A stretch of DNA of 64,000 bases from Chryseobacterium sp. ZHDP1 (GTDB taxonomy: Bacteria > Bacteroidota > Bacteroidia > Flavobacteriales > Weeksellaceae): the NCBI RefSeq assembly GCF_018603435.1, contig NZ_CP075682.1, forward strand, positions 806,001 to 870,000, in the 5' to 3' direction. The notes beneath the pieces are model-generated. The model was given only the letters and a program-made list of their open reading frames with translations, searched no databases and had not been told where the DNA came from. A program made the position numbers and the translations under genes. Positions 19,320 to 58,953 of this stretch are shown piece by piece (within the stretch, counting starts at the first letter, position 1; every line of letters begins with the position of its first letter).

Positions 19320-19820
19320 TCTGTGAACGTACTTCTAATGCAACGAAGCAATCTCTTACAATAATCTATTATTACATCAACAGATTTGTCATTTCGACGA
19401 AGGAGAAATCTACCTTCCAAGCAGAACATCTTTATATTTTTCAGGAGCTATTTCCCGCTTTCCATTACAATCTTTTTTTGCAAAAAAGGATTTTCATTAC
19501 AATCGGGGCTAAAATTCCCCTCATCAATCAATACTGATACGTTTTCACAGCATTTACCTCTCCAAAAATAAAGAATGAAGCAGAAATTTAATTATCCTAA
19601 GTTCGGAATAAGTCTTCTTAAACGCAAGGTTAAACAAAGAGATTCAATTATCAGGAATTCTGCTTTTAAGATATACAAAGGCGTAAAATTGATCAAAGTA
19701 ATACCATTTTTGTCTTTTTTAAATAAACGAAGTGCCTTTGTTTAGCTTAAAAAATTTCAATAAATAAAAAATCTTTTGTTTTTCTTTGCGATAAATTAAG
19801 GTTAATTAATGTTTCCATAA
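19320..19820. repeat. Gene-free spacer with Bacteroidetes dispersed repeats
   Basis: The 695 bases between rplI and the AraC gene have no gene. They contain GCAACGAAGCAATCTCT (about 19340-19356) and GTCATTTCGACGAAGGAGAA (19388-19407), both of which I recognise as sequences recurring in intergenic regions of Flavobacteria genomes, and a decayed CTTTGCG ... GGTTAA element near 19787-19812. The recognition rests on memory of such genomes, not on a search. Confidence 0.4.
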
Positions 19821-40244: not shown

Positions 40245-42193
40245 TGCTTTTTATGTTGTTTGATTCTGTTATGCTTATTATACTTTTTATCTTTTCTTTT
40301 TAAGATAATTCCTGAAAGCGGCGGCAGACTTACGCTGATGGATTTCTGATGATTCATGTATTCCTCATACTGTTCACTGAAAATTTCAGGCTTATAACCG
40401 CTTCCCGAATACCGTTCATCATCAGAGTTAAAAATAATTTCCCAGTGACTTCCCGCATTTACGCCTATTTTATAATCCAGAACTTCCGGTTTCAGGTTGA
40501 GAATCACCATAAAAACATCATCTTTTTTCTTTCCTTTTCTCAAATAGACATACACGGAATTCTCCAGATCATCTGCTTCCACCCATTCAAAACCATCCCT
40601 GCTGAACTGATTTTCATAGAAAGCCGTTTCATATCTGTAAAGATGATTAAGATCTTTTACCAATGTCTGCAAACCTTTATGAACAGGATATTCCAGTAAA
40701 TGCCAATCCAGACTCTGTTTGAAATTCCATTCGCTGGTCTGCCCAAATTCATCGCCCATAAAAAGCAGTTTTGCTCCCGGATGCGTAAACATATACACAT
40801 ACAGTGCGCGAAGATTGGCAAATTTCTGCCATTCATCGCCTTTCATTTTATAGATAAGACTCGCTTTTCCGTGTACCACTTCATCGTGAGACAAGGGCAT
40901 CATATAATTTTCATTATACATATACATAGAAGCGAAGGTAAGTTTATGATGATGAAACTTTCTGTTTTCGTGTTCTTCTTTAAAATAATCCAGCGTATCG
41001 TGCATCCATCCCATCATCCATTTCATTCCAAATCCTACTCCGCCGTCATGAACAGGCTTTGTAAGCATAGGAAAATCTGAACTTTCTTCTGCAATGGTAA
41101 TGATATTGTCTCCGAATTCTTTATAAACAGCCGTATTAAAATCCTGCAAAAATGCTTTTGCTTCGAGATTTACATTTCCTCCGTAAATATTCGGTTCCCA
41201 TTCTCCTTCATTTCGGGAATAATCGAGGTGAAGCATCGAGGTTACTGCATCTACACGCAATCCGTCTGCATGATAGCGTTCCAGCCAGAACATCGCATTG
41301 GAAATCAGAAAAGATTTCACTTCATTTCTTCCGTAATTGAAAATGTATGATTTCCAGTCGGGATGAAAGCCTTTTCTGGGATCTTCATGCTCGTAAAGAT
41401 AAGAACCGTCAAATCTGTGCAAACCATTTGCATCACCCGGAAAATGCGAAGGTACCCAGTCTAAAATCACGCCGATTCCATTCTGATGAAGCTCATCAAT
41501 CAAAGACATCAAATCCTGCGGAGAACCGAAACGTGAAGTGGCTGCATAAAATCCTGTAATCTGATATCCCCAGCTCGGATCGTAAGGATATTCCATCACC
41601 GGCATAAATTCTACGTGGGTAAAGCCCATTTCTTTAATATAAGGAACGAGTTTTTTCCCGATATCGCGGTAATTCAGAAACTTTTTCGGATCATTTCCTT
41701 CTCTTACCCAGGATCCCAGATGCAGTTCATACACCGACAACGGAGCATTTAACGTATTTTTTTTCCAGCGGTTTTCCAGCCAGTCTTTATCTTTCCATTC
41801 GTACCAAGTGGTAGAAACCAATGAGGCAGCCTGAAGATTCTGTTCCCAGCTCAAAGCGTATGGATCACTTTTTTCTAAAATTTCTCCGCGCGGCGTTTCT
41901 ATAGCATACTTATACAAAGTTCCCCATGTTAAACCTGCAATGAAGCCTTCCCAGATTCCGGATTCGTCCCATCTCGGAAACAGGATGTGGTCTTTATGGT
42001 TCCAGTTGTTGAAATTTCCGATTACCGAAACTTTCTTGGCGTTGGGAGCCCAGACTGAGAAATAAACTCCTTTTACTCCATCTTTTTCAGCGGAATGTGC
42101 GCCGAATTTATCATACAGCTTATAATGCTTACCTTCTTTGAAAAGATAAACATCATGATCCGTAAAAAGAGTGTATGTTTTAACCGAATTCAT
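40241..42193 (-). CDS. glgB: 1,4-alpha-glucan branching enzyme
   Basis: 650 residues. N-terminal CBM48-type domain (GVYFSVWAPNAKKVSVIGNFNNW), then a GH13 barrel with SVYELHLGSWVREG, the nucleophile D315 in DGLRVDAVTSML, the acid/base E369 in TIAEESSDFP, and LSHDEVVHGK; C-terminal all-beta domain. It moves glucan segments to form alpha-1,6 branches. I start at ATG 42193; a GTG at 42196 would add only one residue. First gene of the glycogen operon, with promoter at 42310-42317 and a leader of about 110 bases. Confidence 0.96.
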   Translation of the reverse strand: MNSVKTYTLFTDHDVYLFKEGKHYKLYDKFGAHSAEKDGVKGVYFSVWAPNAKKVSVIGNFNNWNHKDHILFPRWDESGIWEGFIAGLTWGTLYKYAIETPRGEILEKSDPYALSWEQNLQAASLVSTTWYEWKDKDWLENRWKKNTLNAPLSVYELHLGSWVREGNDPKKFLNYRDIGKKLVPYIKEMGFTHVEFMPVMEYPYDPSWGYQITGFYAATSRFGSPQDLMSLIDELHQNGIGVILDWVPSHFPGDANGLHRFDGSYLYEHEDPRKGFHPDWKSYIFNYGRNEVKSFLISNAMFWLERYHADGLRVDAVTSMLHLDYSRNEGEWEPNIYGGNVNLEAKAFLQDFNTAVYKEFGDNIITIAEESSDFPMLTKPVHDGGVGFGMKWMMGWMHDTLDYFKEEHENRKFHHHKLTFASMYMYNENYMMPLSHDEVVHGKASLIYKMKGDEWQKFANLRALYVYMFTHPGAKLLFMGDEFGQTSEWNFKQSLDWHLLEYPVHKGLQTLVKDLNHLYRYETAFYENQFSRDGFEWVEADDLENSVYVYLRKGKKKDDVFMVILNLKPEVLDYKIGVNAGSHWEIIFNSDDERYSGSGYKPEIFSEQYEEYMNHQKSISVSLPPLSGIILKRKDKKYNKHNRIKQHKKQ

Positions 42194-42309
42194 CACGGTT
42201 TTGATTTAATTTTTATATTTTTCTTGAAACTACAAAAAATATCTGCAATAATCATTAATAAATTTTGAATAAATTATTATGTTAAACTCTTTGCAGTACT
42301 TGTTTCTAT

Positions 42310-42317
42310 CAAATATA
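42310..42317 (-). promoter_or_regulatory. -7 box for the glycogen operon
   Basis: Minus strand TATATTTG, a perfect TAnnTTTG, 116 bases before the glgB ATG. The spacer 42194-42408 to the divergent gene is AT-rich and holds no other clear site. Confidence 0.5.
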
Positions 42318-42408
42318 CCGCTTTTTTATTCAGTGTTTATCGTTTTAAAATGATTTGTCTTAAAAAGATTTTTTATAAATTTATGCTTTAATTTTACTAA
42401 AAACACGG

Positions 42409-43530
42409 ATGAAGTTTGAACTTTACACAGCAGAAAGTGATGAACGAACGGTTTACATCACAGGAAATTTTAACAATTGGAATCCGAAAGACTACAACTT
42501 TCAACTGATCCAAAAAGACTCTCAAAATTATTTTATCGAAATCGACGATCAGCTTTTGCCAGATGTTATTGAATACAAATTTACTAAGGGCGGCTGGGAA
42601 AATGTAGAACTTGACAAATACGGAAGTATCACCCCAAACAAAAAAGCTTTAAAATCCTCAGGAAAAACATCAGATACCGTTGAAAAATGGAGATTCAACT
42701 GGGGACCTTTCAAGGATGAATATTTTCCGATTGCAGAAATTATTTCGGAGGAATTCTACATTCCGCAGTTAGACCGCTACAGAAAAATCTGGGCACTTCT
42801 ACCCTACGATTATTATGTTTCCGACAAAAAATATCCTGTTCTGTATCTTCAGGATGCACAGAATTTATTTAATGAAGGAAGCGGTTACGGAAACTGGGAA
42901 ATCGATAAGAAACTTTCCATTCTCTCAGAATACGGTCGTGGAGATGTCATCATCATTGCAGTAGAACACGGAAGCGAAGAAAGGATTAAAGAATATATTT
43001 TTGATAACGACAATGTCGCGAACGGATCAGAAGGTAAAAAATACATCCGCTTCATTACAGATACTTTGAAACCTTATGTCGACCAGACTTACCGTACAAA
43101 AAAAGACCGCGACAATACAGGAATCGGAGGAAGCTCTCTCGGCGCGCTGATCAGCATTTACAGCGGATTTCTTTATCCTGAAGTCTACTCCAAACTGTTG
43201 ATATTTTCGCCTTCACTTTGGGTAGAACCGAACAATAATTTCCCGATGATGAATTTCAGGGTTCCTTTTAAAACGAAAATCTATCTTTACGGAGGCGGTC
43301 AGGAAGGCTCAAAAATGGTAAAGAGAATTCATATTTTTGAAGAATATTTAAAACGCTGGGAGAAGAAAAACCTATTCGATTTTGAATTCAGAACAAGCAT
43401 CAATCCGGAAGGTACACACAGCGAATTTTACTGGTCGCAGGAATTCCCGAGAGCGATTGAATGGCTTTATTATAACAACACAGAAAATCCGGTGGAAGTA
43501 AAACCACAGCAGGAAAGCATTAAAAATTAA
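42409..43530 (+). CDS. Esterase-like alpha/beta hydrolase with N-terminal carbohydrate-binding-type domain
   Basis: 373 residues. The first 90 residues are a CBM48/AMPK-type immunoglobulin fold (RTVYITGNFNNWNPKDYNF, with the typical aromatic glucan-contacting residues), the same type as the start of GlgB. The rest is an esterase-D-like alpha/beta hydrolase with the nucleophile elbow GGSSLGAL (S243 as G-x-S-x-G). It diverges from the glycogen operon and is followed after four bases by an M17 peptidase gene. A role on a glycan-attached substrate is inference from the domain and position. Confidence 0.78.
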   Translation: MKFELYTAESDERTVYITGNFNNWNPKDYNFQLIQKDSQNYFIEIDDQLLPDVIEYKFTKGGWENVELDKYGSITPNKKALKSSGKTSDTVEKWRFNWGPFKDEYFPIAEIISEEFYIPQLDRYRKIWALLPYDYYVSDKKYPVLYLQDAQNLFNEGSGYGNWEIDKKLSILSEYGRGDVIIIAVEHGSEERIKEYIFDNDNVANGSEGKKYIRFITDTLKPYVDQTYRTKKDRDNTGIGGSSLGALISIYSGFLYPEVYSKLLIFSPSLWVEPNNNFPMMNFRVPFKTKIYLYGGGQEGSKMVKRIHIFEEYLKRWEKKNLFDFEFRTSINPEGTHSEFYWSQEFPRAIEWLYYNNTENPVEVKPQQESIKN

Positions 43531-43534
43531 AATT

Positions 43535-44950
43535 ATGAAATTAATCAACAAAAAAAATAAAAATTATACGCAGGTTTTTCATCTTTTCACAGAAGAAGAA
43601 TGGACGAAAACCAGCAAAAATTTCAATAAAAACATTTCAACTTTCTTTACGGGTAAAAAACATGAAGTTTTTGTGAATGCCCATGAGGAAGGAATAACAT
43701 ATTTTATAGGTATCGGAAAATCTACTTTGCAGAATTTTGAAATTCAGCAAGTTGCTGTTAAATTTTCCCAGACGCAGAAAGGGAAAGTACAGCCTGTTCC
43801 TACATTAGTTGTGGCAGATTGCATCAATGAGAAGCAATTTGAAGAATTTGCAAAAGGTTTATTACTGGGAACCTATAATTATCCTTTCGAAAAAACGCAT
43901 GCGTTCTGGAATGCTAAATTTGAGCTTCATTTTGAAAATTTAAGCCAGAAAAAATTAGACACCATCGGCAAAAAAGCTGAAGCACTGAGCAACGGACAGA
44001 CCGTCTGTCAGGAATGGCTGAACAAACCCGCCAATCTTAAAAAACCGGATACTTTCAGTTTATATTTAAAAAATTTAGCTAAAAAATATGATTTAAAATA
44101 TACTTCTTTCAACAGGAAAAAGTGTGAGGAACTTGGTTTGGGAGCTTATCTTTCCGTTAATCAGGGAAGTGCTTATGACGCAGCATTTACCATTATTGAA
44201 TACAAAACCAATGTTAAAAATGCAGTCACTTTCGGCTTGGTCGGAAAATGTGTATTGTTTGACACTGGGGGAATTTCTCTGAAAAATCCCGACAATATGC
44301 ATTATATGAAATCGGATATGGGCGGTGCAACAGCCGTTTTGGGAACTCTGATTTATGCCGCGGAAATGCAGCTTCCGGTTAATATTGTTGCTATTTTACC
44401 TGTTACCGACAATGCTATTTCTGAAAATGCCTTTCTTCCGAGTGACGTTATTACCGCTTACAACGGAAAAACAATTGAGGTTCTCAATACCGATGCGGAA
44501 GGCAGAATGATCCTTGCCGACGGACTTTCCTATATGGCAAAAAACTTCAAAACAGATTTTCTGATCGACCTTGCCACGCTTACCGGAAGTTCTGTAAGGA
44601 TGTTTGGCGATACTTGCGGAGCTCTGTTTTCCAACAATGAAGAATTGAAAAATCTTTTGATAAAAACCGGCGATAAAACCAATCAGAGACTTTGGAATTT
44701 ACCGCTTTGGGATGTCTGGAAAGACGATATCCAGTCGGATGTGGCAGACATTAAGAATATTTCGATGAAACCTATCGGAGATTGCATTATTGCGGCTAAA
44801 TTTTTAGAACAGTTTATTGAAAACCATCCTAAATGGGCGCATCTTGATATTGCCGGAGTGGCATTCGGAAATGTAGGATATGCCAAAGAAAAGGCTGCAA
44901 CGGGATTTGGAGTGCAATTATTAGCCGATTTAATCGAAAATTATCACTAA
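43535..44950 (+). CDS. M17 leucyl aminopeptidase family protein
   Basis: 471 residues. N-terminal macro-like domain of low conservation, then the C-terminal M17 core with VLFDTGGISLKNPDNMHYMK, MGGATAVLGTLIYAA, and VLNTDAEGRMILADGLSYM, which carry the two-zinc ligands and the catalytic bicarbonate-site arginine. It should remove N-terminal amino acids from peptides in the cytoplasm. Co-transcribed with the preceding esterase gene. Confidence 0.93.
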   Translation: MKLINKKNKNYTQVFHLFTEEEWTKTSKNFNKNISTFFTGKKHEVFVNAHEEGITYFIGIGKSTLQNFEIQQVAVKFSQTQKGKVQPVPTLVVADCINEKQFEEFAKGLLLGTYNYPFEKTHAFWNAKFELHFENLSQKKLDTIGKKAEALSNGQTVCQEWLNKPANLKKPDTFSLYLKNLAKKYDLKYTSFNRKKCEELGLGAYLSVNQGSAYDAAFTIIEYKTNVKNAVTFGLVGKCVLFDTGGISLKNPDNMHYMKSDMGGATAVLGTLIYAAEMQLPVNIVAILPVTDNAISENAFLPSDVITAYNGKTIEVLNTDAEGRMILADGLSYMAKNFKTDFLIDLATLTGSSVRMFGDTCGALFSNNEELKNLLIKTGDKTNQRLWNLPLWDVWKDDIQSDVADIKNISMKPIGDCIIAAKFLEQFIENHPKWAHLDIAGVAFGNVGYAKEKAATGFGVQLLADLIENYH

Positions 44951-45053
44951 AAATTAGTTTATTACAAAAATTCTCTGTATAATTGAAATAGAATTTTCAA
45001 AAGCGCACAATATTTTAATTTTTAACATTAAATAATTAATAAAAAAACGTTTT

Positions 45054-45061
45054 TATTTTTG
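45054..45061 (+). promoter_or_regulatory. -7 box for the ATP-grasp gene cluster
   Basis: TATTTTTG fits the box, 29 bases upstream of the ATG at 45091, and would drive the genes 45091-50192 as one operon. Confidence 0.5.
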
Positions 45062-45090
45062 AAAGTTCATCAAAAATTAAAAAACATTGT

Positions 45091-46302
45091 ATGGAGGAGA
45101 AAACAATAGTATGTATTTCGTGCTATTACAAGGGTTATGATTTCATGGATGAAATGAAAAAACTCGGTAATAAAATTATTTTAGTAACATCCGAAAATCT
45201 TAAAGAAAAAAACTGGCCGTGGCATGCCATTGATGAGGTATTTTATATGCCTGAAGTAAAGCCTTCTGTCTGGAATCTGGATCATCTCGTTCAGGGATTT
45301 TCCCATCTCATGCAGACCAGAAAAGTACACGCCGTTATTGCTCTAGACGATTACGATGTGGAAAAGGCTGCGCTTATCCGCGAAACATTCAGAATTCCGG
45401 GGATGGGACAGACTACGCACCGCTATTTCAGGGATAAACTTGCCATGCGACAAAAAGCAAAAGATTCCGGAATTAATGTTCCTGAGTTCACGGCAGTTTT
45501 TAATAATGATGAGGTTAATCGTTTTATTGATGATGTTCCTGCACCGTGGGTTTTAAAACCACGTTCTGAAGCATCTGCTTCGGGAATTAAAAAACTGTCT
45601 TCCAAAGAAGAGCTTTGGGAAGCTTTGAATAATCTTGGGGAAGAGCGTCACTTATTCCTTCTGGAAAGCTTCAAGCCGGGAGATGTTTATCATGTAGACA
45701 GCCTTACTTTTAATAAAGAAATTGTTTTCACTTCTGCCTCAAAATATTTGGCGCCGCCGATGCAGGTTTCGCATGAAGGAGGTGTTTTCAGAACAAAAAC
45801 GCTTGGGAGATATTCTGATGAATTTATGGCTCTTGAAGAGGTCAATTCGAAAGTTTTATCCAATTTCGGACTAATCAACGGAGCGACTCACACAGAATTT
45901 ATCCGCAGCAAAGACGACGGCAAATATTATTTCCTTGAAACTTCATCAAGAGTGGGAGGAGCACATATTCCGGATCTTGTGGAAGCATCAAGCAGCATCA
46001 ATATCTGGAGAGAATGGGCGAAAATTGAAGATGCTTTATTAAGAGGAAAAAACTATGAGGTTTCTAAACCTACAGGCTATTATTCGGGACTTATTGTCGC
46101 TTTAATTAAAGACAAAGAGCCGGATTACAATCAGTTTGAATGTGAAGAGGCTGTAAAATTCCTGCCTATAGATTATCATGTCGGAATTGTTTACAAATCG
46201 AAAGACTCAGTAGTCGTACAGGAAAGATTAGACACGGCAGCAGAAAAAATTCATGCTGAATTACTGAATATTCTTCCGCCGAAAGACAAACCCATGTCAT
46301 AA
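45091..46302 (+). CDS. ATP-grasp ligase (carboxylate-amine ligase fold)
   Basis: 403 residues. N-terminal pre-ATP-grasp Rossmann-like domain (about 1-105), then the ATP-grasp core: GWDRLRT-style TTHRYFRDKLAMRQKAKDSG, the ATP-binding segment PAPWVLKPRSEASASGIK, and the metal-binding end FLETSSRVGGAHIPDLVEA. Enzymes of this fold join a carboxylate to an amine through an acylphosphate. It opens a cluster with further ligases, an amidotransferase and a hydrolase, so it probably adds one building block to a small molecule. Substrate unknown. Confidence 0.87.
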   Translation: MEEKTIVCISCYYKGYDFMDEMKKLGNKIILVTSENLKEKNWPWHAIDEVFYMPEVKPSVWNLDHLVQGFSHLMQTRKVHAVIALDDYDVEKAALIRETFRIPGMGQTTHRYFRDKLAMRQKAKDSGINVPEFTAVFNNDEVNRFIDDVPAPWVLKPRSEASASGIKKLSSKEELWEALNNLGEERHLFLLESFKPGDVYHVDSLTFNKEIVFTSASKYLAPPMQVSHEGGVFRTKTLGRYSDEFMALEEVNSKVLSNFGLINGATHTEFIRSKDDGKYYFLETSSRVGGAHIPDLVEASSSINIWREWAKIEDALLRGKNYEVSKPTGYYSGLIVALIKDKEPDYNQFECEEAVKFLPIDYHVGIVYKSKDSVVVQERLDTAAEKIHAELLNILPPKDKPMS

Positions 46303-46303
46303 T

Positions 46304-46432
46304 TTGAACAGAGAAATTAACATCAAAGAAATTATTGATTTTATAAAATTAAGTTTACACGAAGGTTCTGCTTTAAGAAGTACTTTAGATACAATTAAAT
46401 CAGGAGAATGGAAAGGTAAACCTTATTATTAA
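46304..46432 (+). CDS. Possible small protein directly after the ATP-grasp gene
   Basis: A 42-codon frame starting at TTG one base after the stop of the ATP-grasp gene, in another frame, with coding-like composition. It reads IKEIIDFIKLSLHEGSALR and ends GEWKGKPYY. There is no ATG, and the frame is only open from about 46268. It could be a tiny peptide gene, the rest of a broken gene or a chance open frame. The 160-base gap between two cluster genes is otherwise empty. Confidence 0.3.
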   Translation: MNREINIKEIIDFIKLSLHEGSALRSTLDTIKSGEWKGKPYY

Positions 46433-46462
46433 TTTAATGATTAAACCCAAATACGAAAAAAA

Positions 46463-47176
46463 ATGCCACAGATAGAGCATACAGATTATTACTCACATAT
46501 ACTAGGAACAAGTCTTAAAGTGGAAGTTACGGGACATTACGGTTATCCGATTATTATGTTTCCGACTTCACAGGGACAATATACCCAAAACCATGATTTT
46601 CATCTTAACGGAAGCATCAACTGGTTTATAGAACAGGGAAAAGTAAAACTGTACAACGTTCAGACCATAGACGGATGGAGTTTTTATGACAACAATATTT
46701 CTCCTCAGCAAAGGATTAAAAATTATGAAAGATATGTTCAGTTTCTGATTCAGGAATTTGTTCCTTACGTTCAGAAAATTCATAAGACGCATCGCGTTGC
46801 GGTAGCAGGAGCAAGTTTCGGAGGATATCATGCGGCTAATTTTGCTTTCCGTTTTCCGGACGTTGTCTCGCATCTGTTCTGTCTGTCAGGAGCATTCAGC
46901 ATTCGAAATTTTATGGACGGCTATTCCGATGAGCTGGTTTATTTCAACTGTCCGCGCGAATTTGTAAGAAATGATGAAGCATGGAAATACAAACATATGC
47001 ATATTGTTTTGAGTACTTCCGATCAGGATATCTGCAAAGATAAAAACGTGGAAATGGCAGAAATTTTAGCTTCCAAAGGCATTGATTTCTGGTATGATGA
47101 AAGAAAGTGGATCAACCACGACTGGCCGCTCTGGAGAATGGTTTTCCCAACTTTTATCGGAGCATTCTTTTCTTAA
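46463..47176 (+). CDS. Alpha/beta hydrolase (COG4947-like esterase)
   Basis: 237 residues. The fold starts with strands HYGYPIIMFPTSQGQY and VKLYNVQTIDGWSFYD; the nucleophile elbow is AVAGASFGGYHAANFA (S118); the late histidine is probably that of KWINHDWPLWR and an aspartate precedes it. Length and motifs fit the Ser hydrolases found beside ATP-grasp ligases. It may remove a protecting group or release a product. Second protein gene of the cluster. Confidence 0.82.
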   Translation: MPQIEHTDYYSHILGTSLKVEVTGHYGYPIIMFPTSQGQYTQNHDFHLNGSINWFIEQGKVKLYNVQTIDGWSFYDNNISPQQRIKNYERYVQFLIQEFVPYVQKIHKTHRVAVAGASFGGYHAANFAFRFPDVVSHLFCLSGAFSIRNFMDGYSDELVYFNCPREFVRNDEAWKYKHMHIVLSTSDQDICKDKNVEMAEILASKGIDFWYDERKWINHDWPLWRMVFPTFIGAFFS

Positions 47177-47221
47177 AAACTTAAAAATTAATATTAAAAT
47201 ACAACATTAAAAAATACATTT

Positions 47222-48175
47222 ATGGCAAAAAAAGTAGGAATTCTATTCGGTATGGAAGATACGTTTCCTTGGGCGTTTATTGATAAAGTCAACGAATTGG
47301 GAGGCGGAGAAATCATCGCAGAACCTGTACATATCGATAAACTTGAACAGGGCGCAGATTACGGATATGCTGTAATTATCGACAGAATTTCGCAGGATGT
47401 GCCTTTTTACAGAGCGTACCTGAAAAATGCAGCATTGAACGGAACCTATGTCATCAACAATCCTTTCTGGTGGAGCGCAGACGAAAAGTTTTTTAATAAC
47501 GCTTTGATGACAAAACTGGGAATTCCGCTTCCGAAAACAGTTTTGCTTCCGTCTCACGAAAGACCGACAAACACTTCAGAAACCTCTTTCAGAAATTTGA
47601 AATTCCCTCACGACTGGGATTATATCTTTGATTATGTAGGTTTTCCTGCGTACATGAAACCGCATGACGGAGGCGGATGGAGAAATGTATACCGCGTGGA
47701 AAATCCGGAGGATCTTTGGTCGAAATTAAGCGAAACTGAGCAGTTGGTTATGATGGTTCAGGAAGAAATTATCTTTGACGATTATTACAGAGTCTACTGT
47801 TTAGGTAAAAAATATGTTCATATCATGCCTTATGAGCCGAGAAATCCTCATCATCTGAGATATGCAACTACACATCAGACGCAGGGTGAAGAACTGGAAA
47901 AATTATTAAAAACAATTCACGACTACACCATTAAGATGAATGAAGCGCTTGGCTATGATTTCAACACAGTAGAATTTGCAGTAAGAGACGGAATTCCTTA
48001 TGCAATCGACTTCTGTAATCCTGCTCCGGATGCAGACAAAAATTCTGTAGGAGAAGAAAATTTTGCATGGATCGTAGAACACGCAGCAAAATTAGCGATC
48101 GAAAAGGCAAAAGAATATGTTCCGGGAAAACCAAACATCTCATGGGGAAATTTCGTAAAAGATTCTGTAAAATAA
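47222..48175 (+). CDS. ATP-grasp ligase, RimK/D-Ala-D-Ala ligase-like
   Basis: 317 residues. N-terminal Rossmann-like domain to about 95, then ATP-grasp with FPAYMKPHDGGGWRNVYRV (ATP-binding lysine and glycine loop), LVMMVQEEIIFDDYYRVY, and at the end DFNTVEFAVRDGIPYAIDFCNP, where the Glu and Asn bind magnesium. No predicted ribosome partner. With the first ATP-grasp, the GCS2 ligase and the GATase it makes a multi-step amide-forming set. 45 bases after the hydrolase. Confidence 0.87.
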   Translation: MAKKVGILFGMEDTFPWAFIDKVNELGGGEIIAEPVHIDKLEQGADYGYAVIIDRISQDVPFYRAYLKNAALNGTYVINNPFWWSADEKFFNNALMTKLGIPLPKTVLLPSHERPTNTSETSFRNLKFPHDWDYIFDYVGFPAYMKPHDGGGWRNVYRVENPEDLWSKLSETEQLVMMVQEEIIFDDYYRVYCLGKKYVHIMPYEPRNPHHLRYATTHQTQGEELEKLLKTIHDYTIKMNEALGYDFNTVEFAVRDGIPYAIDFCNPAPDADKNSVGEENFAWIVEHAAKLAIEKAKEYVPGKPNISWGNFVKDSVK

Positions 48176-48202
48176 GAATATCAACAAAAAGCACGAAAAA
48201 AA

Positions 48203-49321
48203 ATGCATCAATTTACTATTGGAATCGAAGAAGAATATCAGATTATTGATGTTGAGAGCCGGGATCTGGTCTCTCATGTTTCGAAAATTATTGAAGGCGG
48301 AAAAGCTGTTTTAAGTGAAAATTTAAAGCATGAAATGCATGAATCCATGATTGAAATGGAGACAGGCATCTGCCAGAATATTCAGGAGGCAAAAGCCGAA
48401 TTAACGAATTTAAGAAGACATCTTATAAAAACCGCCCACGAACAGGGACTGAGAGTTTCCGGCGGCGGAACGCATCCTTTTTCTAACTGGGAACACAACA
48501 CCATTACAAATGGAGAGCGTTATATTAAGATTGTGGACGATATGGGAGATGTGGCAAGAGGAAATTTAATTTTCGGGCTTCACGTCCATATCGGAATTCC
48601 GAACCGTGAAGAAGGCGTGAGAATCCAGAACGTGATGAGGTATTTCCTTCCGCACGTTTATGCACTATCAACAAATTCTCCTTTCTGGATCGGAAGAAAC
48701 ACAGGATTTAAGTCTTACCGACAGGAAATTTTTGTTAAATTCCCAAGAACCGGAATTCCAAGCTTTTTTAATTCTTTAGCTGAATTTGACAGTTATGTAG
48801 ATCTTTTGGTAAAGACAGGAACCATTGATAACGCTAAAAAAATATGGTGGGATCTCAGAGTTCATCCGTTCTACCCTACCATCGAATTCAGAATCTGCGA
48901 TATGCCGATGAGAATTGATGAAACCGTTTGTCTCGCTGCCATTATGCAGGCTTTGGTTGCAAAAATCTACAAACTTCATCAGCAGAATTTAAGTTTCAGA
49001 AGTTACAGAAGATTGCTGTTAAATGAAAACAAATGGCGTGCTTCGAAGAGCGGAATTGAAGCTCATTTAATTGATTTTGGAAAAGAAGAATCTGTTCCAT
49101 ATCCTGATTTATTAAAGGAACTTCTTGAATTTATTGATGATGTGGTGGACGAATTGGGATGCAGAAAAGAGGTTGAATATGCATGGACCATTCTTGAAAA
49201 CGGAACCGGAGCAGACCGACAGCTTAAAGTATTCAATGAAACAGGTGACCTTACGAAAGTTGTTGATTATATGATCTCAGAAACAGAGTATGGCATAACA
49301 CACGGTGAAACTGCTTCATAA
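48203..49321 (+). CDS. GCS2-type carboxylate-amine ligase (YbdK-like)
   Basis: 372 residues of the glutamate-cysteine ligase 2 family. The signature FTIGIEEEYQIID opens the protein, then HPFSNWEH, LIFGLHVHIGIPN and the metal/substrate block TIEFRICDMPMR. YbdK-type proteins make weak gamma-glutamyl amides in vitro, but their cellular amine is often unknown. Placement between two ATP-grasp-type enzymes and a glutamine amidotransferase suggests a dedicated biosynthetic role, not glutathione synthesis. 27 bases after the previous gene. Confidence 0.92.
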   Translation: MHQFTIGIEEEYQIIDVESRDLVSHVSKIIEGGKAVLSENLKHEMHESMIEMETGICQNIQEAKAELTNLRRHLIKTAHEQGLRVSGGGTHPFSNWEHNTITNGERYIKIVDDMGDVARGNLIFGLHVHIGIPNREEGVRIQNVMRYFLPHVYALSTNSPFWIGRNTGFKSYRQEIFVKFPRTGIPSFFNSLAEFDSYVDLLVKTGTIDNAKKIWWDLRVHPFYPTIEFRICDMPMRIDETVCLAAIMQALVAKIYKLHQQNLSFRSYRRLLLNENKWRASKSGIEAHLIDFGKEESVPYPDLLKELLEFIDDVVDELGCRKEVEYAWTILENGTGADRQLKVFNETGDLTKVVDYMISETEYGITHGETAS

Positions 49322-49329
49322 TTTTTTGG

Positions 49330-49337
49330 TAACTTTG
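49330..49337 (+). promoter_or_regulatory. -7 box before the amidotransferase gene
   Basis: TAACTTTG matches TAnnTTTG, 18 bases upstream of the ATG at 49356. It may give extra expression inside the cluster. Confidence 0.35.
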
Positions 49338-49355
49338 TAAAAAATATGAAGTCGT

Positions 49356-50192
49356 ATGAATGATATTCGAATTGCTTTGCTGGACATGAACAACAATCAT
49401 GTTAATCAGGGTTTTAAAAATATTAAAGAAATTTCCGAAGCATTTAAAAAGAGCTGTATTCAGGAAAACGTAAGCATTGAAACATTTGATGTGAGATTTA
49501 AAAATGAAATGCCCAATGTTGAGGATTTCGATATTTTTATTTCTTCGGGAGGTCCGGGAGATCCGCACAGAGAAGGTCTTGAATGGGAGGATAAATTTGC
49601 TCAGTTTCTGGATAATGTTTTCGAACATAACCAGTACAGCGACGACAAAAAGTATCTGTTTCTGATCTGTCATTCTTTTCAGCTGGCAAGTATTCACTGG
49701 AAACTTGGAAATATCTGCAAGAGAAAATCGTATTCTTTCGGCGTAATGCCGGTTCATAAAACCGAAGAAGGAGAACAGGAATTTTTATTCAAAAATCTTC
49801 CGGATCCTTTCTATGCAGTAGATTCCAGAGCGTATCAGTTTATCGAACCGGATCATGACCGTTTTGAGGAACTGGGTATGAAAATCGTTGCCATTGAAAA
49901 ATTCCGCCCGCACATTAACCTTGAAAGAGCGGTAATGGCGATTCGTTTTTCGGAGGAAATATTCGGAACACAGTTTCATCCGGAAGCCAATCCTGCAGGG
50001 ATGATTGAAAATCTGAAAGACGAAAAGAACAAGCAGGCGATGATCGAAAATTTCGGAATGGAAAAGTATCTTGAAACGGTAGACAGAATGGATGATGAAG
50101 ATAAGATTATCCTTACTCAGGCACAGATTCTTCCGAGATTTTTGCAGTTTGCAAAAAAAAACGTTTTGAAGCAGGCAGAAGCAATGGCTTAA
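49356..50192 (+). CDS. Class I glutamine amidotransferase
   Basis: 278 residues. The catalytic cysteine is C105 in LFLICHSFQLASIHW and the histidine H208 in GTQFHPEANPAG; the oxyanion loop is SSGGPGDPHR. The protein hydrolyses glutamine and passes ammonia to a partner. The partner is not fixed by sequence; the ligases of the cluster are the natural candidates. An amidated carboxylate would be the expected chemical output. Confidence 0.88.
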   Translation: MNDIRIALLDMNNNHVNQGFKNIKEISEAFKKSCIQENVSIETFDVRFKNEMPNVEDFDIFISSGGPGDPHREGLEWEDKFAQFLDNVFEHNQYSDDKKYLFLICHSFQLASIHWKLGNICKRKSYSFGVMPVHKTEEGEQEFLFKNLPDPFYAVDSRAYQFIEPDHDRFEELGMKIVAIEKFRPHINLERAVMAIRFSEEIFGTQFHPEANPAGMIENLKDEKNKQAMIENFGMEKYLETVDRMDDEDKIILTQAQILPRFLQFAKKNVLKQAEAMA

Positions 50193-50220
50193 ATTTGTAA
50201 TACACGAAATTTCAATACAA

Positions 50221-50252
50221 AAAATCGGGCAAAAAACTGTCCGATTTTTTAA
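50221..50252 (+). terminator. Intrinsic terminator inside the ligase cluster
   Basis: AAAATCGGGC pairs with GTCCGATTTT (one G-T pair), seven- or eight-base loop, T run. It splits the cluster into genes to 50192 and genes from 50274. Confidence 0.7.
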
Positions 50253-50273
50253 ATCACAAAAAGAAAAAGAATT

Positions 50274-51458
50274 ATGATTCCAAAATACAGAAAGCAATTT
50301 AATCAGGAATTTTCTCAGGAAAAATACAATCAGTTTAAAGAGATATTGAAACAGAAAAGTGGTCTGGAAGCCGGATTCAGAATTTCCGAAAGTCCTTTGT
50401 TTTTAACAAAAGAATTTGAATCTAAACTCATTGATGCCAGCGAAAGCATCATCACACAGATTAAAAATCTTCCTGAGGAAACTTTGCAAAAAGCGATTCC
50501 TGATAACTGCAGGGTTCCCAACGACACAAAACAGCCTCACTTTTTCACGATAGATTTCGGGATCTGCAAGAGCGAAAACGGCGAGATTGAACCTCAGCTG
50601 ATCGAGCTGCAGGCTTTTCCTTCACTGTATGCATTTCAGAAAGTTTTTGAACAGACATTCTGTGATGTTTATCCTTTTCTTTCGGAGCTGCAAAATAAAA
50701 CACCTCATGAAGATTTTAAAAATTATATAAAGGATTTAATTCTGGGTAACGAAAATCCTGAACATGTAATTCTCCTTGAAATTTACCCTGAAAAACAGAA
50801 AACCGCTATCGATTTTGTTTTAACTGAAAAATTACTGGGAATAAAAACGGTCTGTTTAACCAAAATAAAAAAAGACGGAAGAAAATTATTCTATGAAAAC
50901 GATGGAAAATTAACAGAAATCAGAAGGATTTACAATCGTGTTATTTTCGACGAATTAGACCGGATTCCGGATCTGAAAACCGAATTCGATTTCCGTGAAG
51001 ATGTTGATGTAACTTGGGTTACGCATCCGAACTGGTTTTTTAAAATTTCTAAATTCCTCCTTCCACTTTTACAGCATCAGTTTGTTCCGAAAAGCTACTT
51101 CCTTCATGAATTTCCGGAAAGCGAAAGCCTTGAAAATTTCGTTTTAAAACCTTTATTTTCTTTTGCTGGAAGTGGAGTGAATTTAAATCCGACAAAGGAA
51201 ATTACAGATGCCATTGAGGATAAAGAAAACTATATTTTGCAGAGAAAGGTAAACTATGAGCCGATTTTTGAAGATATCAACGGAGAGTTTTCAAAAGCAG
51301 AGATCAGATTACTGTATATCTGGCGCGAAAATGACGAACGTCCTATTCTACTGGAAAATCTGGGCAGAATGACAAAAGCAGCCATGGTAAATGTAGATTT
51401 CAATAAGAAAGATGCGATCTGGATCGGAAGTTCAAATGCCTTTTTTGCGGAGGAATAG
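50274..51458 (+). CDS. Divergent ATP-grasp-like protein, third ligase candidate
   Basis: 394 residues. No signal peptide. The order of its motifs suggests an ATP-grasp fold with rearranged parts, as in glutathionylspermidine synthase-type enzymes: EPQLIELQAFPSLYAF (metal-binding type block) early, then a long central region, and FVLKPLFSFAGSGVNL (ATP-binding type lysine) and LLENLGRMTKAAMVNV late. I call it ATP-grasp-like from these patterns only; identity with a known family was not checked. It follows the GATase after a terminator. Confidence 0.55.
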   Translation: MIPKYRKQFNQEFSQEKYNQFKEILKQKSGLEAGFRISESPLFLTKEFESKLIDASESIITQIKNLPEETLQKAIPDNCRVPNDTKQPHFFTIDFGICKSENGEIEPQLIELQAFPSLYAFQKVFEQTFCDVYPFLSELQNKTPHEDFKNYIKDLILGNENPEHVILLEIYPEKQKTAIDFVLTEKLLGIKTVCLTKIKKDGRKLFYENDGKLTEIRRIYNRVIFDELDRIPDLKTEFDFREDVDVTWVTHPNWFFKISKFLLPLLQHQFVPKSYFLHEFPESESLENFVLKPLFSFAGSGVNLNPTKEITDAIEDKENYILQRKVNYEPIFEDINGEFSKAEIRLLYIWRENDERPILLENLGRMTKAAMVNVDFNKKDAIWIGSSNAFFAEE

Positions 51459-51474
51459 ATTATACGAATAAACA

Positions 51475-51930
51475 ATGGAAGAAAAGTCAGCTTTTGAAGA
51501 GTTTGAAACACAGGGTGATGTACGAAGAAGAAGTTTATTGCCGCTCTGGATCAAAATATTTTTATGGTTCTTTTTGATTGGAGGTTTTTTTGCGGTCATC
51601 TTTTTAATGATTGCACCTTTTTTAAGTAATATAAGTCTGTCGCTTTATGGCATCAATGCCAATCATCCTTACACTTTACCCGGAATAATTGTAGCATTAC
51701 TGTTTATATTCAAAGGAATTGTTGCCTACGGACTTTGGTTTGAACAGAAATGGGCGCCACAAACTGCTATTATTGATGCTTTTTTGGGTATTGCAATTTG
51801 TATCATCATGATGTTTGTTATTCCTTTTACGGTTCCAAATATAAGTTTTACCATAAGATTAGAATTAATCCCTTTGTATTTTTATCTGGTTAAAATGCAG
51901 AAAATAAAATCTATCTGGGAAAATATGTAA
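51475..51930 (+). CDS. Small integral membrane protein
   Basis: 151 residues with four hydrophobic segments (about 22-44, 59-82, 95-113 and 118-138) and a polar N-terminus (MEEKSAFEEFETQGDVRRR). It is not homologous to anything that I can name. 16 bases after the ligase-like gene and probably co-transcribed, so it could carry the cluster product or be unrelated. Followed by a strong terminator. Confidence 0.6.
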   Translation: MEEKSAFEEFETQGDVRRRSLLPLWIKIFLWFFLIGGFFAVIFLMIAPFLSNISLSLYGINANHPYTLPGIIVALLFIFKGIVAYGLWFEQKWAPQTAIIDAFLGIAICIIMMFVIPFTVPNISFTIRLELIPLYFYLVKMQKIKSIWENM

Positions 51931-51931
51931 T

Positions 51932-51960
51932 AAAAAAGCTTCAAAATTCGAAGCTTTTTT
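51932..51960. terminator. Bidirectional terminator between the cluster and cphA
   Basis: AAAAAAGCTTC pairs perfectly with GAAGCTTTTTT across seven bases, with T runs on both strands. It separates 51475-51930 from the convergent cphA. Confidence 0.85.
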
Positions 51961-51964
51961 ATTG

Positions 51965-51997
51965 AGTATCGGCGGCATCTTCGATGCCGCCGATACT
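51965..51997. repeat. Perfect GC-rich hairpin with TTC loop
   Basis: AGTATCGGCGGCATC is followed by TTC and its exact reverse complement: 15 base pairs, three-base loop. It is far richer in GC than its surroundings and lies next to the previous terminator. It may be a second terminator or a REP-like repeat. Confidence 0.7.
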
Positions 51998-52014
51998 TTT
52001 AAATCATAGTATGA

Positions 52015-54642
52015 TTATATTTTATCATCTTCAAGCAATTCTCTCGCCTGATATTCCTGAACCAGATCAATCGCATTCGAAATCACATCGCTTAAAGCGG
52101 TAATGAAGGTTCCTTCTTCTGCCATTCCCATGGCGTGTTTCAGAGCTTCAATTTCTTTAGGTATAATCTCATAGCTTACATCTCTTCCGGAAGATTGCAT
52201 TCCTTCGATAATCAATCCGTTGATTTCCTCTTCCGTTCTTCCGCGAAGATGCTTTTCATTTCGGATGATAATATGATCGAACATTCTTCCTGCAATTTTC
52301 CCACATTCTCTGATGTCATTATCACGTCTGTCTCCTACCCCGGAAATAATTCCGATTTTCTTCGTTGCTTCTACATTTTTAAGATAATCTTCAATTGCCT
52401 CATACCCTGCAGGATTATGCGCAAAATCGATCAGTACTTTAAAGCTTTTGAATTTAAATACGTTCAATCTTCCCGGAGTAAGCTGCGCACTTGGTATAAA
52501 TGTTCTTAAAGAATTCGAAATATCTTCGATCCCGAAACCGTAGAGATAGGAAGCCAGACTTGCTGCGAGAACGTTTTCGATCATGAATTTAGCCTTTCCT
52601 TCCATCGTGATCGGGAAATCTTTTGCCTTTCCGATTCTGATCTTCCAGTCTCCTTTTTTAATGGTAACAAACCCTTCTTCATACACACAGGTAATTTTAC
52701 CTTCTTTAGCGAATTTTTTGATGTGCGGATTGTTTTCATCCATACTGAAAATGGCAACATTAGAATGGAGATCATTAACAATTCTCATGGAATATTCGTC
52801 ATCGGCATTCATTACGCTCCATCCGTTTTTCTTCACGCTGTCCAGAACAACCCTTTTTACTCTGGTAAGATCTTTCAGGTTGTGGATATCGTTCATTCCC
52901 AAATGATCTTCTTTGATGTTGGTTAAAACACCGATGTCACACTGAGAAAATCCTAAACCGGAGCGTAAGATTCCGCCTCTTGCAGTTTCCAAAACGGCAA
53001 ATTCTACCGTTGGATCTTTCAGAATAAATTCAGCAGAAAGAGGTCCTGTTGTATCTCCTTTCGTCAACATCGTATTTTGAATATAAATTCCGTCCGATGT
53101 CGTGAAACCTACTCTGTAACCATTGCTTTTCACAATATGGGAAATAAGTCTTGTAGTGGTTGTTTTTCCATTCGTTCCCGTTACCGCAATAATTGGGATG
53201 GTAAAAGGTTTTCCCTGCGGATAGAGCATATCTACAACGGGAGCAGCAACATTTCTCGGCAATCCTTCACTTGGAGCCAAGTGCATTCTGAATCCCGGAG
53301 CTGCATTCACTTCAATAATAGCACCGCCGCTTTCTTTTAAAGGCTGGGTTAAATTTTCTGCCATGATATCAATTCCGCAGACATCAAGACCGATGATTTT
53401 TGAAATCCTTTCCGCCATGGTAATGTTTTCCGGATGTACCATATCGGTAACATCAATAGAAGTTCCTCCTGTAGAAAGATTGGCGGTTGATTTCAGATAA
53501 ACCACTTCCCCTTTCTGCGGAACGCTTTCCAGAGTATACTGAAGTTTATCAAGAAGCTCTGTGGTATCTTTATCAATTAAGATTTCGGTTAAAACATTTT
53601 CGTGTCCGTAGCCTCTTCTCGGATCTTTATTTTCTTTATCAATTAACTGCTGAAGATTCAGTTCTCCGTCTCCTACAACATGAGCCGGAACTCTTCTTGC
53701 AGCGGCTACCATTTTATTGTTGATGACCAAAACTCTGAAATCGTATCCGGTGATGTATTTTTCAACAATAACTTTTCTTGAGTATTTCTGAGCGTGTTCA
53801 AGACCTGTTTTTGCAGATTCCCAGTCGTTCACATTAATCGAAGAACCTTTTCCGTGGTTTCCGTCCAATGGTTTAATCACAACAGGATAACCAATTTTTC
53901 TTATCACACTTCCTAATCCTTCCTCATCTACGATAAGATCTCCGATAGGAACAGGAATTGCCGCATCGTGGAGCATTTTTTTTGTTAACTCTTTATTACA
54001 GGCAATATCTACCGCAATTGAGCTTGTATTTCCTGTAATCGTTGCCTGAAATCTCTGCTGATTTACGCCATAGCCAAGCTGAACCAAAGAGTTGGTTCCC
54101 AGACGGATCCAAGGAATTCTTCGGGAAACCGCTTCTTCCACGATACTTCCCGTAGAAGGACCAAGACGCACTCTTTCCCTGATTTCTTTTAGCTTTTTTA
54201 TACAGGCATTCAGATCATATTCTTCACCAGTTATTAAAGCTTCAGCAATTTTTACAGATTCTTCTGCAGCATAAATTCCTGCATTTTCTTCAATATAGTT
54301 GAATACGACATTATACACTCCCGGAGTTTTTGTTTCACGAGTTCTTCCGAAACCGACGTCCATTCCCGCTAAAGTCTGGATTTCCAACGCGATATGCTCA
54401 ATAACGTGTCCCATCCATGTTCCCGTTTCGATACGGTGAAAAAAACCGCCTTCTACTCCTTCGGAACATCTGTGAGAGAACAAAGAGGGAATCAGTTTTT
54501 CTATTCTTTCTCTGAAGCCGTCAATTTTATTGGTTGGGAAATTCTCCATTTCTTCGAGGTCCAATCTCATCTGTATCAGTTTCTTTCTTCTGATGCTCCA
54601 AATGTTTGGTCCCCGTAACGCCTGTATCTTCTCAATTTTCAT
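52015..54642 (-). CDS. cphA: Cyanophycin synthetase
   Basis: 875 residues. N-terminal CphA domain (to about 160), ATP-grasp domain with KPLDGNHGKGSSINV (K257) and a Mur-ligase-like domain with P-loop VTGTNGKTTTTRL (K493), TARGGILRSGLGF and DFAHNPAGYEAIEDYL. It uses ATP to add aspartate to the chain and arginine to its side chain, building the multi-L-arginyl-poly-L-aspartate reserve. Both active domains look complete. Genes for breakdown (cyanophycinase, isoaspartyl peptidase) lie at 61512-63983. Promoter at 54687-54694. Confidence 0.95.
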   Translation of the reverse strand: MKIEKIQALRGPNIWSIRRKKLIQMRLDLEEMENFPTNKIDGFRERIEKLIPSLFSHRCSEGVEGGFFHRIETGTWMGHVIEHIALEIQTLAGMDVGFGRTRETKTPGVYNVVFNYIEENAGIYAAEESVKIAEALITGEEYDLNACIKKLKEIRERVRLGPSTGSIVEEAVSRRIPWIRLGTNSLVQLGYGVNQQRFQATITGNTSSIAVDIACNKELTKKMLHDAAIPVPIGDLIVDEEGLGSVIRKIGYPVVIKPLDGNHGKGSSINVNDWESAKTGLEHAQKYSRKVIVEKYITGYDFRVLVINNKMVAAARRVPAHVVGDGELNLQQLIDKENKDPRRGYGHENVLTEILIDKDTTELLDKLQYTLESVPQKGEVVYLKSTANLSTGGTSIDVTDMVHPENITMAERISKIIGLDVCGIDIMAENLTQPLKESGGAIIEVNAAPGFRMHLAPSEGLPRNVAAPVVDMLYPQGKPFTIPIIAVTGTNGKTTTTRLISHIVKSNGYRVGFTTSDGIYIQNTMLTKGDTTGPLSAEFILKDPTVEFAVLETARGGILRSGLGFSQCDIGVLTNIKEDHLGMNDIHNLKDLTRVKRVVLDSVKKNGWSVMNADDEYSMRIVNDLHSNVAIFSMDENNPHIKKFAKEGKITCVYEEGFVTIKKGDWKIRIGKAKDFPITMEGKAKFMIENVLAASLASYLYGFGIEDISNSLRTFIPSAQLTPGRLNVFKFKSFKVLIDFAHNPAGYEAIEDYLKNVEATKKIGIISGVGDRRDNDIRECGKIAGRMFDHIIIRNEKHLRGRTEEEINGLIIEGMQSSGRDVSYEIIPKEIEALKHAMGMAEEGTFITALSDVISNAIDLVQEYQARELLEDDKI

Positions 54643-57225: not shown

Positions 57226-58953
57226 TTAAGAAATTATTTTATTATAAATCAAAATTGTGCTTTCTACAAATCCCGTAGCAAATTCAAACGCATTTTCATT
57301 CCAATCTGATTCGTCAAGTAAGTGAAAATGTAAATGAGATGGCAAATATGTGTCTTTTGAATCTTCTTGAATTTTTCTAAACCAAATTTTCCATAAATCA
57401 TTAATTTGACCATTTATGGCATATTTTAAGTCTTTTTCAAAATTATTTTTAAGTTTTTCAGAAAATTTATTAAGTTGTGCATTTATTGTCGGCTTATTAT
57501 TTGATTTTAACAAATTATTAATTACTTCAATTCCTAATTGTTCGGTTGCAAGAATAACAAACCAAATTAGATCGGAAAATATTTTATTTCTTTGTAAAAC
57601 AGGAGTCATTTTTATTATTTCTTGAACTAATTTACTTTCTTGCACTCTGTCAATTAATATAATTTCATCATAAAGATGTTCGTGGTTTTTTTCGTCTTTA
57701 CTTCCAAAATCTAATGAAAGTGGTGTGTAAGGAAGCACTCTGTATTTGCCAATTTGATATTGAGGCGAATAAATTGATGAAATTCTTTCTTCATTAAAGA
57801 ATTGGTTTAAACTTTTTTCATCAGATAACAAATCTTTTGTTGTGTGACCCTCTCCCCAAGTTTTAAAATATTTATCTAAATCATTAAAAGGTTTATCAAA
57901 CTTTGACTCTGAAATTGGAGCTATTTTTAGTACTTTGCCTTTGTACTTGTCTTGCGCAAAATATTGTGCGAAAAAATAACTAAAAGTGTTTTCGTCAAAA
58001 ATATTAAACTGTTTTGCTATTGTTCTTAAGATTTGTAAATGGTCATTAAGTTGTTTTTCTATTGCACCCAATACACTTGGAAATTGAGAGAGTACTCTAA
58101 TATGTTCTGGTAATAAGTCTAATAGTTCTTTATCCAAAAATGTTATATTATTTAATGGCTTTGATATAATGGAAACTAAATTATGGTCTAATCTTTTGCC
58201 AATTGCTTTTTCTCCCCAAAGAGTTTTAGAAAGTTCAAGATAGTATTTACTTATTTTTGCTAATTTTTCACTGTTGATGAAATCTTTTCTTTCAAAATGA
58301 ACGATTTGTCTTAAATCAACTTCAAAGCCAAATTTTGAATAAAGTTTTCCTTTCCTATCTCTACATTTATCTAACCCTTCATTAATTTGTGTTTCATTTA
58401 AAGTTTTAAATTGTCGAATAGTTTTATTAGAACTCATCCACTCACTATCAGCCAACATTACTCTTATTGGCTTTTTAAGAATTTTACTAACTCTATAAGC
58501 TCTACCAAACTCACATAGAAGAGCAATAGAGTCATCAACTGGACTTAAACCACCACATAAAAGTATTGTCTCTGCTTTTTTAATTTGTTCGGAAGTTTTT
58601 ATATTGTAAAATTCTACTTGTTCGTCTTCTTTTCTAATCAGCTCTAATAAATTTAAAGAATCCGTACTAAAATTTGAAGATAATTCTAAATAAGGTTTGT
58701 CAGTTGGTTTTCCAATAGACATATAAATCAACTTAGCAATTAATCTTTCAGGTATTGCAATAAACAACAATTCATCAACTCCTTTTGGATCATCGTGTGA
58801 TTTTTGACAAGCATCAATTAATCTATCCTGAAAAGTAGCATTCTCCTTATTTGAATAAATTGCTAAAAAGTCAGGTGCTTTATCTGATGAGTTTTTTACT
58901 CTTGAAGAAGTTCTATCTGATGATAATTTAGATAATGTATATAATGAAACCAT
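57226..58953 (-). CDS. Unrecognised 575-residue protein in an AT-rich islet
   Basis: No signal peptide or membrane segment. The N-terminal third has mixed alpha/beta character with the segment ILLCGGLSPVDDSIALLCEF followed by KPIRVMLADSEWMSSNKTIR, faintly like a nucleotide-binding Rossmann/HUP region; the rest is long helices. The C-terminus has HLHFHLLDESDWNENAFEF. The gene is visibly more AT-rich than its neighbours and uses more AT-ending codons, so transfer is likely. It is intact over 1.7 kb. A defence or tRNA-related role can be imagined because a dtd remnant follows, but this is unproven. Confidence 0.6.
   Translation of the reverse strand: MVSLYTLSKLSSDRTSSRVKNSSDKAPDFLAIYSNKENATFQDRLIDACQKSHDDPKGVDELLFIAIPERLIAKLIYMSIGKPTDKPYLELSSNFSTDSLNLLELIRKEDEQVEFYNIKTSEQIKKAETILLCGGLSPVDDSIALLCEFGRAYRVSKILKKPIRVMLADSEWMSSNKTIRQFKTLNETQINEGLDKCRDRKGKLYSKFGFEVDLRQIVHFERKDFINSEKLAKISKYYLELSKTLWGEKAIGKRLDHNLVSIISKPLNNITFLDKELLDLLPEHIRVLSQFPSVLGAIEKQLNDHLQILRTIAKQFNIFDENTFSYFFAQYFAQDKYKGKVLKIAPISESKFDKPFNDLDKYFKTWGEGHTTKDLLSDEKSLNQFFNEERISSIYSPQYQIGKYRVLPYTPLSLDFGSKDEKNHEHLYDEIILIDRVQESKLVQEIIKMTPVLQRNKIFSDLIWFVILATEQLGIEVINNLLKSNNKPTINAQLNKFSEKLKNNFEKDLKYAINGQINDLWKIWFRKIQEDSKDTYLPSHLHFHLLDESDWNENAFEFATGFVESTILIYNKIIS

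Follow-up and report, generated by a model that had tools for sequence, protein, structure and literature searches.

A conserved eight-gene block of ligases, esterases and peptidases in Chryseobacterium, with a three-ligase core shared across phyla and a likely gamma-glutamyl amide product

The window analysed here, a stretch of 64,000 nucleotides from Chryseobacterium sp. ZHDP1 (contig NZ_CP075682.1, positions 806,001 to 870,000), carries a block of eight genes for ligases, esterases and peptidases on the plus strand (42409-51458). A first-pass annotation had listed the last six as a cluster for an amide-linked product, and all six open reading frames were recovered on the plus strand at 45091-51458. 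From upstream to downstream, the genes are as follows: gene A (42409-43530, 373 amino acids, aa), an esterase (PF00756) with a weak match to the glycogen-binding family AMPK1_CBM in its N-terminal region; gene B (43535-44950, 471 aa), a member of the M17 cytosol (leucyl) aminopeptidase family (PF00883, 348 bits); gene 1 (45091-46302, 403 aa), an ATP-grasp ligase resembling L-amino acid ligases (PF13535 ATP-grasp_4, 29.3 bits, cut-off 27); gene 2 (46463-47176, 237 aa), a small alpha/beta hydrolase esterase (PF00756, 38.2 bits, cut-off 22); gene 3 (47222-48175, 317 aa), a RimK-like ATP-grasp ligase; gene 4 (48203-49321, 372 aa), a YbdK-type GCS2 carboxylate-amine ligase (PF04107, 219.8 bits, cut-off 21); gene 5 (49356-50192, 278 aa), a class I glutamine amidotransferase (GATase)-like protein (PF00117, 42.3 bits, cut-off 22.8); and gene 6 (50274-51458, 394 aa), a ligase placed by its predicted structure in the glutathione synthetase/GspS/YgiC superfamily. 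The families proposed in the first-pass annotation are supported by Pfam and NCBIfam for genes 1, 2, 4 and 5; genes 3 and 6 pass no curated cut-off of either collection.

The extent of the block was determined within the genus. The order A-B-1-2-3-4-5-6 was intact in all 20 Chryseobacterium loci examined, which were taken from 33 other genomes of the genus with gene 3, and gene 3 itself is 94% identical to a C. flavum protein. The block reaches upstream to 42409, and esterase A and aminopeptidase B belong to the set: of 40 genus genomes 38 carry both, and the remaining two are the same two that lack gene 3. Gene B is no more than 6 kb from gene 3 in 32 of the 33 gene-3-bearing genomes (on different contigs in the 33rd). 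Since the flanking genes glgB and cphA are likewise constant across the 20 loci, the genus alone does not define the borders of the block.

The distribution of the genes was surveyed in 392 Bacteroidota genomes. Gene 3 was matched in 140 of these (about a third; 93 of 178 genera), gene 6 in 118, the GATase in 88, and a cluster-type M29 metallopeptidase, found at other loci in the position of gene 5, in 11. After eight genomes with weak or divergent gene 3 matches had been dropped (132 left), genes 3 and 6 were found together in 114 genomes, gene 3 only in 18 and gene 6 only in 4; the GATase occurred without gene 3 in two of the genomes surveyed. Neither GATase nor M29 was present in 33 of the 114. 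Gene 4 was searched for in 56 chosen genomes and was found in 32 of those 33, in 9 of the 18 with gene 3 but without gene 6, and in 4 of 5 others; the other 81 of the 114, in which a GATase or M29 accompanies genes 3 and 6, are represented in the genome-wide search for gene 4 by the genome of the window. In 80 of the 245 gene-3-negative genomes, also searched, a match to gene 4 was seen only twice (35-39% identity). Because related genomes are not independent, all these figures are to be read as counts and not as probabilities. The first-pass annotation would have counted scattered, unlinked genes in relatives against its reading, and in part this pattern is seen. Genes 3, 4 and 6 do often stand apart, on different contigs or at a distance, in several Bacteroidota families, but they are still found in the same genomes, and this sharing of genomes even when unlinked argues for one pathway.

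Gene neighbourhoods were compared in two sets, one from 80 genomes (79 of the survey and one of the genus) and one consisting of the best 80 of 581 loci from named genomes. The order 2-3-4-(5 or M29)-6 is met repeatedly in Bacteroidota and also in Acidobacteriota and Ignavibacteriota, and fewer genes of the same order are seen in Chlorobiota, Calditrichota and Verrucomicrobiota; gene 3 stands alone in some Bacteroidota loci and, exceptionally, genes 4-5-6 adjoin one another without a neighbouring gene 3 in one genome (G209). The identical order in the genus loci and its recurrence in other phyla show that the cluster is more than a product of chance, and the first-pass view of an amide-bond-forming pathway whose genes belong together is supported by the conserved order and the co-occurrence of genes 3, 4 and 6. 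A second form, 2-3-c7-5-A, was found in some Bacteroidota families, Rhodothermota and Balneolota, where c7 denotes a circularly permuted ATP-grasp protein (PF14403, 31.6 bits, just under the cut-off of 32). Gene 6 was absent from all 19 c7 loci, so that the two were never seen at one locus; a comparison of their profiles gave a probability of 13% (E 0.0021). Esterases related to gene A are likewise neighbours of gene 3 in further Bacteroidota and in Acidobacteriota, Balneolota and Rhodothermota. Gene 1 is accessory and rare outside the family: a copy no more than 7 kb from gene 3 and on its strand was found at 2 of 81 loci, one of them the window itself, and at 1 of 80 in the second set. Spread by plasmids was rejected, as a search of 72,556 plasmid records at a threshold of E 1e-5 gave no match to genes 3, 5 and 6.

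The ligases were assigned from family models, conserved residues and predicted structure. Gene 1 matches an L-amino acid ligase of known structure (PDB 4wd3, 1.1e-16). Gene 3 is no closer to RimK than RimK-like, missing the TIGR00768 cut-off (36.8 vs 143.4); its GGGW loop is invariant in 21 aligned rows, as are the Asp and Asn of an IDF-NPAPD motif. Divergent relatives of gene 3 without the GGGW loop (31-36% identity) occur at loci L128-L132 and may be inactive or altered ligases. Gene 4, the sole PF04107 match in its own genome, scores above the curated YbdK/GCS2 models TIGR02050 (303.8, cut-off 176.4) and NF010039 (538.3, cut-off 371) and fails the cyanobacterial glutamate-cysteine ligase model TIGR02048 (66.1 bits vs 249.05). 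It carries the GhExE ATP/Mg signature given in PMC2588565, in the form GIEEE (residues 7-11), with G7, E9, E10 and E11 kept in at least 95% of 64 rows.

The predicted fold of gene 6 matches the glutathione synthetase/GspS/YgiC superfamily over the whole chain, and on this model gene 6 is a member of that structural superfamily. At the level of sequence it falls below the family cut-off (PF03738, 17.8 vs 29.3); a single-sequence search gave a YgiC match at E 0.014, and neither its profile against PDB chains nor a search against NCBIfam gave a match at E 0.1. In one genus a sodium-solute symporter (PF00474) shares an open frame with gene 6 (L224, 5137-7737; L231, 5879-7633), and at L225 it lies directly upstream; this association may hint at an imported substrate for gene 6.

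Gene 5 belongs to the class I GATase fold family, with Cys105, His208 and Glu210 invariant in 23 rows. What occupies its position elsewhere was determined at the 69 loci, out of 183 gene-3 loci, that have genes 4 and 6 both within 7 kb of gene 3 on the same strand; at least one of these loci is counted twice (likely pairs L087/L182 and L122/L139). The slot between genes 4 and 6 holds the GATase at 16 loci, an M29 metallopeptidase at 32, neither at 21, where genes 4 and 6 nearly touch, and both at none. The M29 protein is well supported (PF02073, 64.0 bits, cut-off 27), and E196, E268, H294, H314 and D316, which we take to be the five M29 metal ligands, are invariant in 19 rows. GATase and cluster-type M29 were together in none of the 392 genomes. 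When 30 genomes were checked in full, the GATase was absent from all six with M29 in the slot, the cluster-type M29 was absent from all nine with the GATase in the slot (though distant M29 relatives of about 30% identity exist), and of the 15 with an empty slot 13 had a GATase elsewhere and two had neither protein. On a quick gene-3 tree (84 rows, 82 of them different), the GATase and M29 states need four changes, fewer being forced by the strongly supported branches alone. As the two proteins replace each other and were never found together, they probably do the same job, and that job would be hydrolysis. Gene 5 is therefore likely to cut an amide, perhaps a gamma-glutamyl one, and is probably no ammonia donor. 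The predicted structure of gene 5 has Arabidopsis gamma-glutamyl peptidase 1 (GGP1) as its first Foldseek match. Ranked by Z, proteins named amidotransferases tie with the gamma-glutamyl peptidase, and VIA-align places the latter below some of them.

The first-pass annotation had cast the amidotransferase as a supplier of ammonia, and the same role underlies a rival explanation, by which the GATase feeds ammonia to one of the ligases and a primary amide results, as in the osmolyte N-acetylglutaminylglutamine amide (NAGGN). Besides the fold matches to several named amidotransferases, which are as good as those to the peptidase, this explanation can draw on the PF00117 score and on the complete Cys-His-Glu triad of gene 5. 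It is set against the presence of M29 peptidases in the same slot, never alongside the GATase, which leaves both the earlier assignment and the idea of gene 5 as the fixed ammonia-supplying partner of a ligase unsupported; against the 33 genomes that have genes 3 and 6 and neither protein; and against the nucleophile stretch, which reads CHS in 23 of 23 aligned rows, with a Gln two positions further along in 90% or more, whereas glutaminases have the form CxGxQ. A role as ammonia donor appears unlikely on balance. The exchange of a GATase for a metallopeptidase is also a warning that the label 'glutamine amidotransferase' should not be equated with an ammonia donor.

Of the remaining hydrolases of the block, gene 2 has a conserved Ser118, Asp189 and His219, the serine being present in 44 of 47 aligned relatives. 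At L248 and L251 an M42-type peptidase lies directly before genes 5-6, and another is near gene 5 at L246; besides this peptidase, a protein of 301-303 aa precedes gene 5 at L248 and L251, and also at L246 (only the L248 copies of the two neighbours were scanned). The L248 copy of the M42 neighbour scored 36.9 against TIGR03106 (cut-off 397.75).

Taken together, the block at 42409-51458 is a conserved eight-gene set of the genus around a core of three ligases (genes 3, 4 and 6) found across phyla, and it probably makes a small, glutathione-like gamma-glutamyl amide that is later unmasked or recycled by its own peptidases. The joint presence of three ligases, a GATase- or M29-type hydrolase and additional aminopeptidases is what one would expect if, as with glutathione, a small gamma-glutamyl peptide or amide were first assembled and then trimmed. 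In such a pathway gene 4 would link glutamate, through its side-chain carboxylate, to an amine or amino acid; an amino acid would be added by gene 3, and the carboxylate still free on the gamma-glutamyl compound would be coupled by gene 6 to another amino acid or amine. Cleavage of an amide bond, in the simplest case the gamma-glutamyl or the N-terminal one, would fall to gene 5, or elsewhere to the M29 metallopeptidase. The dipeptide left over would be split by the M17 peptidase B, while any ester or thioester intermediates would be substrates of esterases 2 and A.

The closest known counterpart is the pathway of glutathione and homoglutathione together with plant GGP1, which shares with the block a first ligase of the GCS2 family, a second ligase with the fold of eukaryotic glutathione synthetase, and a GATase-like protein, the one in the block having a gamma-glutamyl peptidase as its first Foldseek match. 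It differs in that the core of the block has a third, RimK-like ligase, that two esterases and an aminopeptidase are attached, and that no sequence-level glutathione model is reached by the block genes. A further difference lies in the hosts, which belong to phyla with bacillithiol genes (Bacteroidetes and Acidobacteria, according to the part of PMC6282198 cited here). Plain glutathione synthesis, with gene 4 as glutamate-cysteine ligase, gene 6 as a glutathione synthetase of eukaryotic fold, and gene 5 and the M17 peptidase degrading the product, is a rival that has in its favour the union in one set of the GCS2 family, the glutathione-synthetase fold and a GATase resembling gamma-glutamyl peptidase, as well as a glutamate-cysteine ligase activity of E. 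coli YbdK, known here from the title of a reference in PMC2588565. We consider it quite unlikely: gene 3 is left without a role, gene 4 misses TIGR02048 and gene 6 has no NCBIfam match, and with the GshA and GshB models genes 1-6 gave no PF02955 match at E 0.1, PF04262 giving no better than E 0.079, for gene 4. Moreover, gshA-gshB is reported in the cited part of PMC6282198 only from Cyanobacteria, Proteobacteria, one actinobacterium and eukaryotes, though the queries used there may not reach these genes. The first-pass annotation had also allowed for ordinary glutathione, purine or cell-wall enzymes, and none of its six genes passes a curated cut-off (Pfam, NCBIfam) for such an enzyme.

A catabolic route, in which an amine is gamma-glutamylated, processed and freed as in the degradation of putrescine or isopropylamine, would share with the Puu route the logic of a ligase and a GATase-type hydrolase, and the symporter in one open frame with gene 6 would suit it. 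It is very unlikely, as no oxidoreductase recurs in the core order and such a route needs fewer than three or four ligases; a pyruvate:ferredoxin oxidoreductase and a dihydroorotate dehydrogenase-like gene do lie upstream at six loci, all of one family (f31). That the genes serve separate routes and adjoin by chance or shared regulation, for which their separation in several Bacteroidota families might be adduced, is highly improbable, given that genes 3, 4 and 6 co-occur genome by genome and that their order is common to several phyla.

The gamma-glutamyl amide pathway can be taken further, if only tentatively: it is conceivable that Bacteroidota, Acidobacteriota and their neighbours have a second, overlooked system of glutathione type, in which the GCS2 enzyme makes a gamma-glutamyl compound, the RimK-like ligase and the ligase of eukaryotic glutathione synthetase fold extend and cap it, and a gamma-glutamyl peptidase, replaced in many lineages by an M29 metallopeptidase, turns it over. 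If so, few small peptides in these phyla would be as widespread as its product, which would stand next to bacillithiol. That a pathway this common has no product named in the literature searched suggests that a cofactor, osmolyte or redox peptide has been missed. In agreement with the first-pass annotation, no product was found, nor was any paper recognised as naming the gene set, in the open-licence literature, a result that applies to that literature and not to print as a whole.

Among other known systems, E. coli GspS and the YgiC/YjfC peptide-spermidine ligases differ from gene 6, which shares about 16% identity or less with them and has no GspS amidase domain; those systems are not known to include GCS2 and RimK-like partners. 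The NAGGN osmolyte trio combines an ATP-grasp ligase, an amidotransferase-type protein and an M42 peptidase at one locus, and it has a parallel in the M42-type peptidase directly before genes 5-6 at L248 and L251. It is unlike the block in that gene 1 scores 15.1 on the TIGR03103 ligase model (cut-off 569), that the M42 neighbour stays far below the TIGR03106 cut-off and that none of the eight genes in the window matches an acetyltransferase family. The predicted amidoligase operons of the Aravind group likewise combine ATP-grasp, GCS2-like ligase and GATase-like proteins, and the amidoligase operon as a kind is already known. The cited part of PMC2588565 places a GATase-like thiol peptidase beside another, GCS2-like ligase family and suggests glutathione or related peptides for it; that ligase family differs from the one in the block. 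The present analysis adds that the set spans eight genes in the genus, that co-occurrence marks out a core of three ligases, that GATase and M29 displace each other, and which fold gene 6 has.

Downstream of the block lies cyanophycin synthetase (cphA, 52015-54642, minus strand), a convergent neighbour in all 20 genus loci. The adjacency noted in the first-pass annotation holds for the genus, but in the 160 loci compared outside it (80 + 80, many of the stretches being short) no cphA was detected close to gene 3, and a cyanophycin-linked product was rejected on this ground. Where genes 3, 4, 5 and 6 are unlinked, their neighbours were compared for a clue to the product and gave no common substrate. 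In one Bacteroidota family (L105, L109, L136 and relatives) gene 3 has a metallophosphatase on one side and a histidine ammonia-lyase on the other, and gene 4 adjoins an S10 carboxypeptidase; elsewhere an amidohydrolase and a symporter adjoin gene 6, and an M42 peptidase adjoins gene 5.

Sigma-70 and terminator scans gave no more than shuffle level. A Bacteroidetes promoter pattern has its single exact match within 41501-52000 at 50165. The gap between genes 5 and 6 (50193-50273) contains, by eye, an inverted repeat ending in a T run that the terminator scan did not list, and gene 6 may, on this feature, be transcribed separately. Gene 6 is followed by a small hydrophobic protein (51475-51930) with no Pfam match, seen in only 8 of the 20 genus loci. 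Elsewhere in the window, two minus-strand genes (57226-58953 and 59072-59722) have no Pfam match at E 0.001, and a Flavo-1 RNA lies on the minus strand at 19447-19514 (72.5 bits, gathering score 42).

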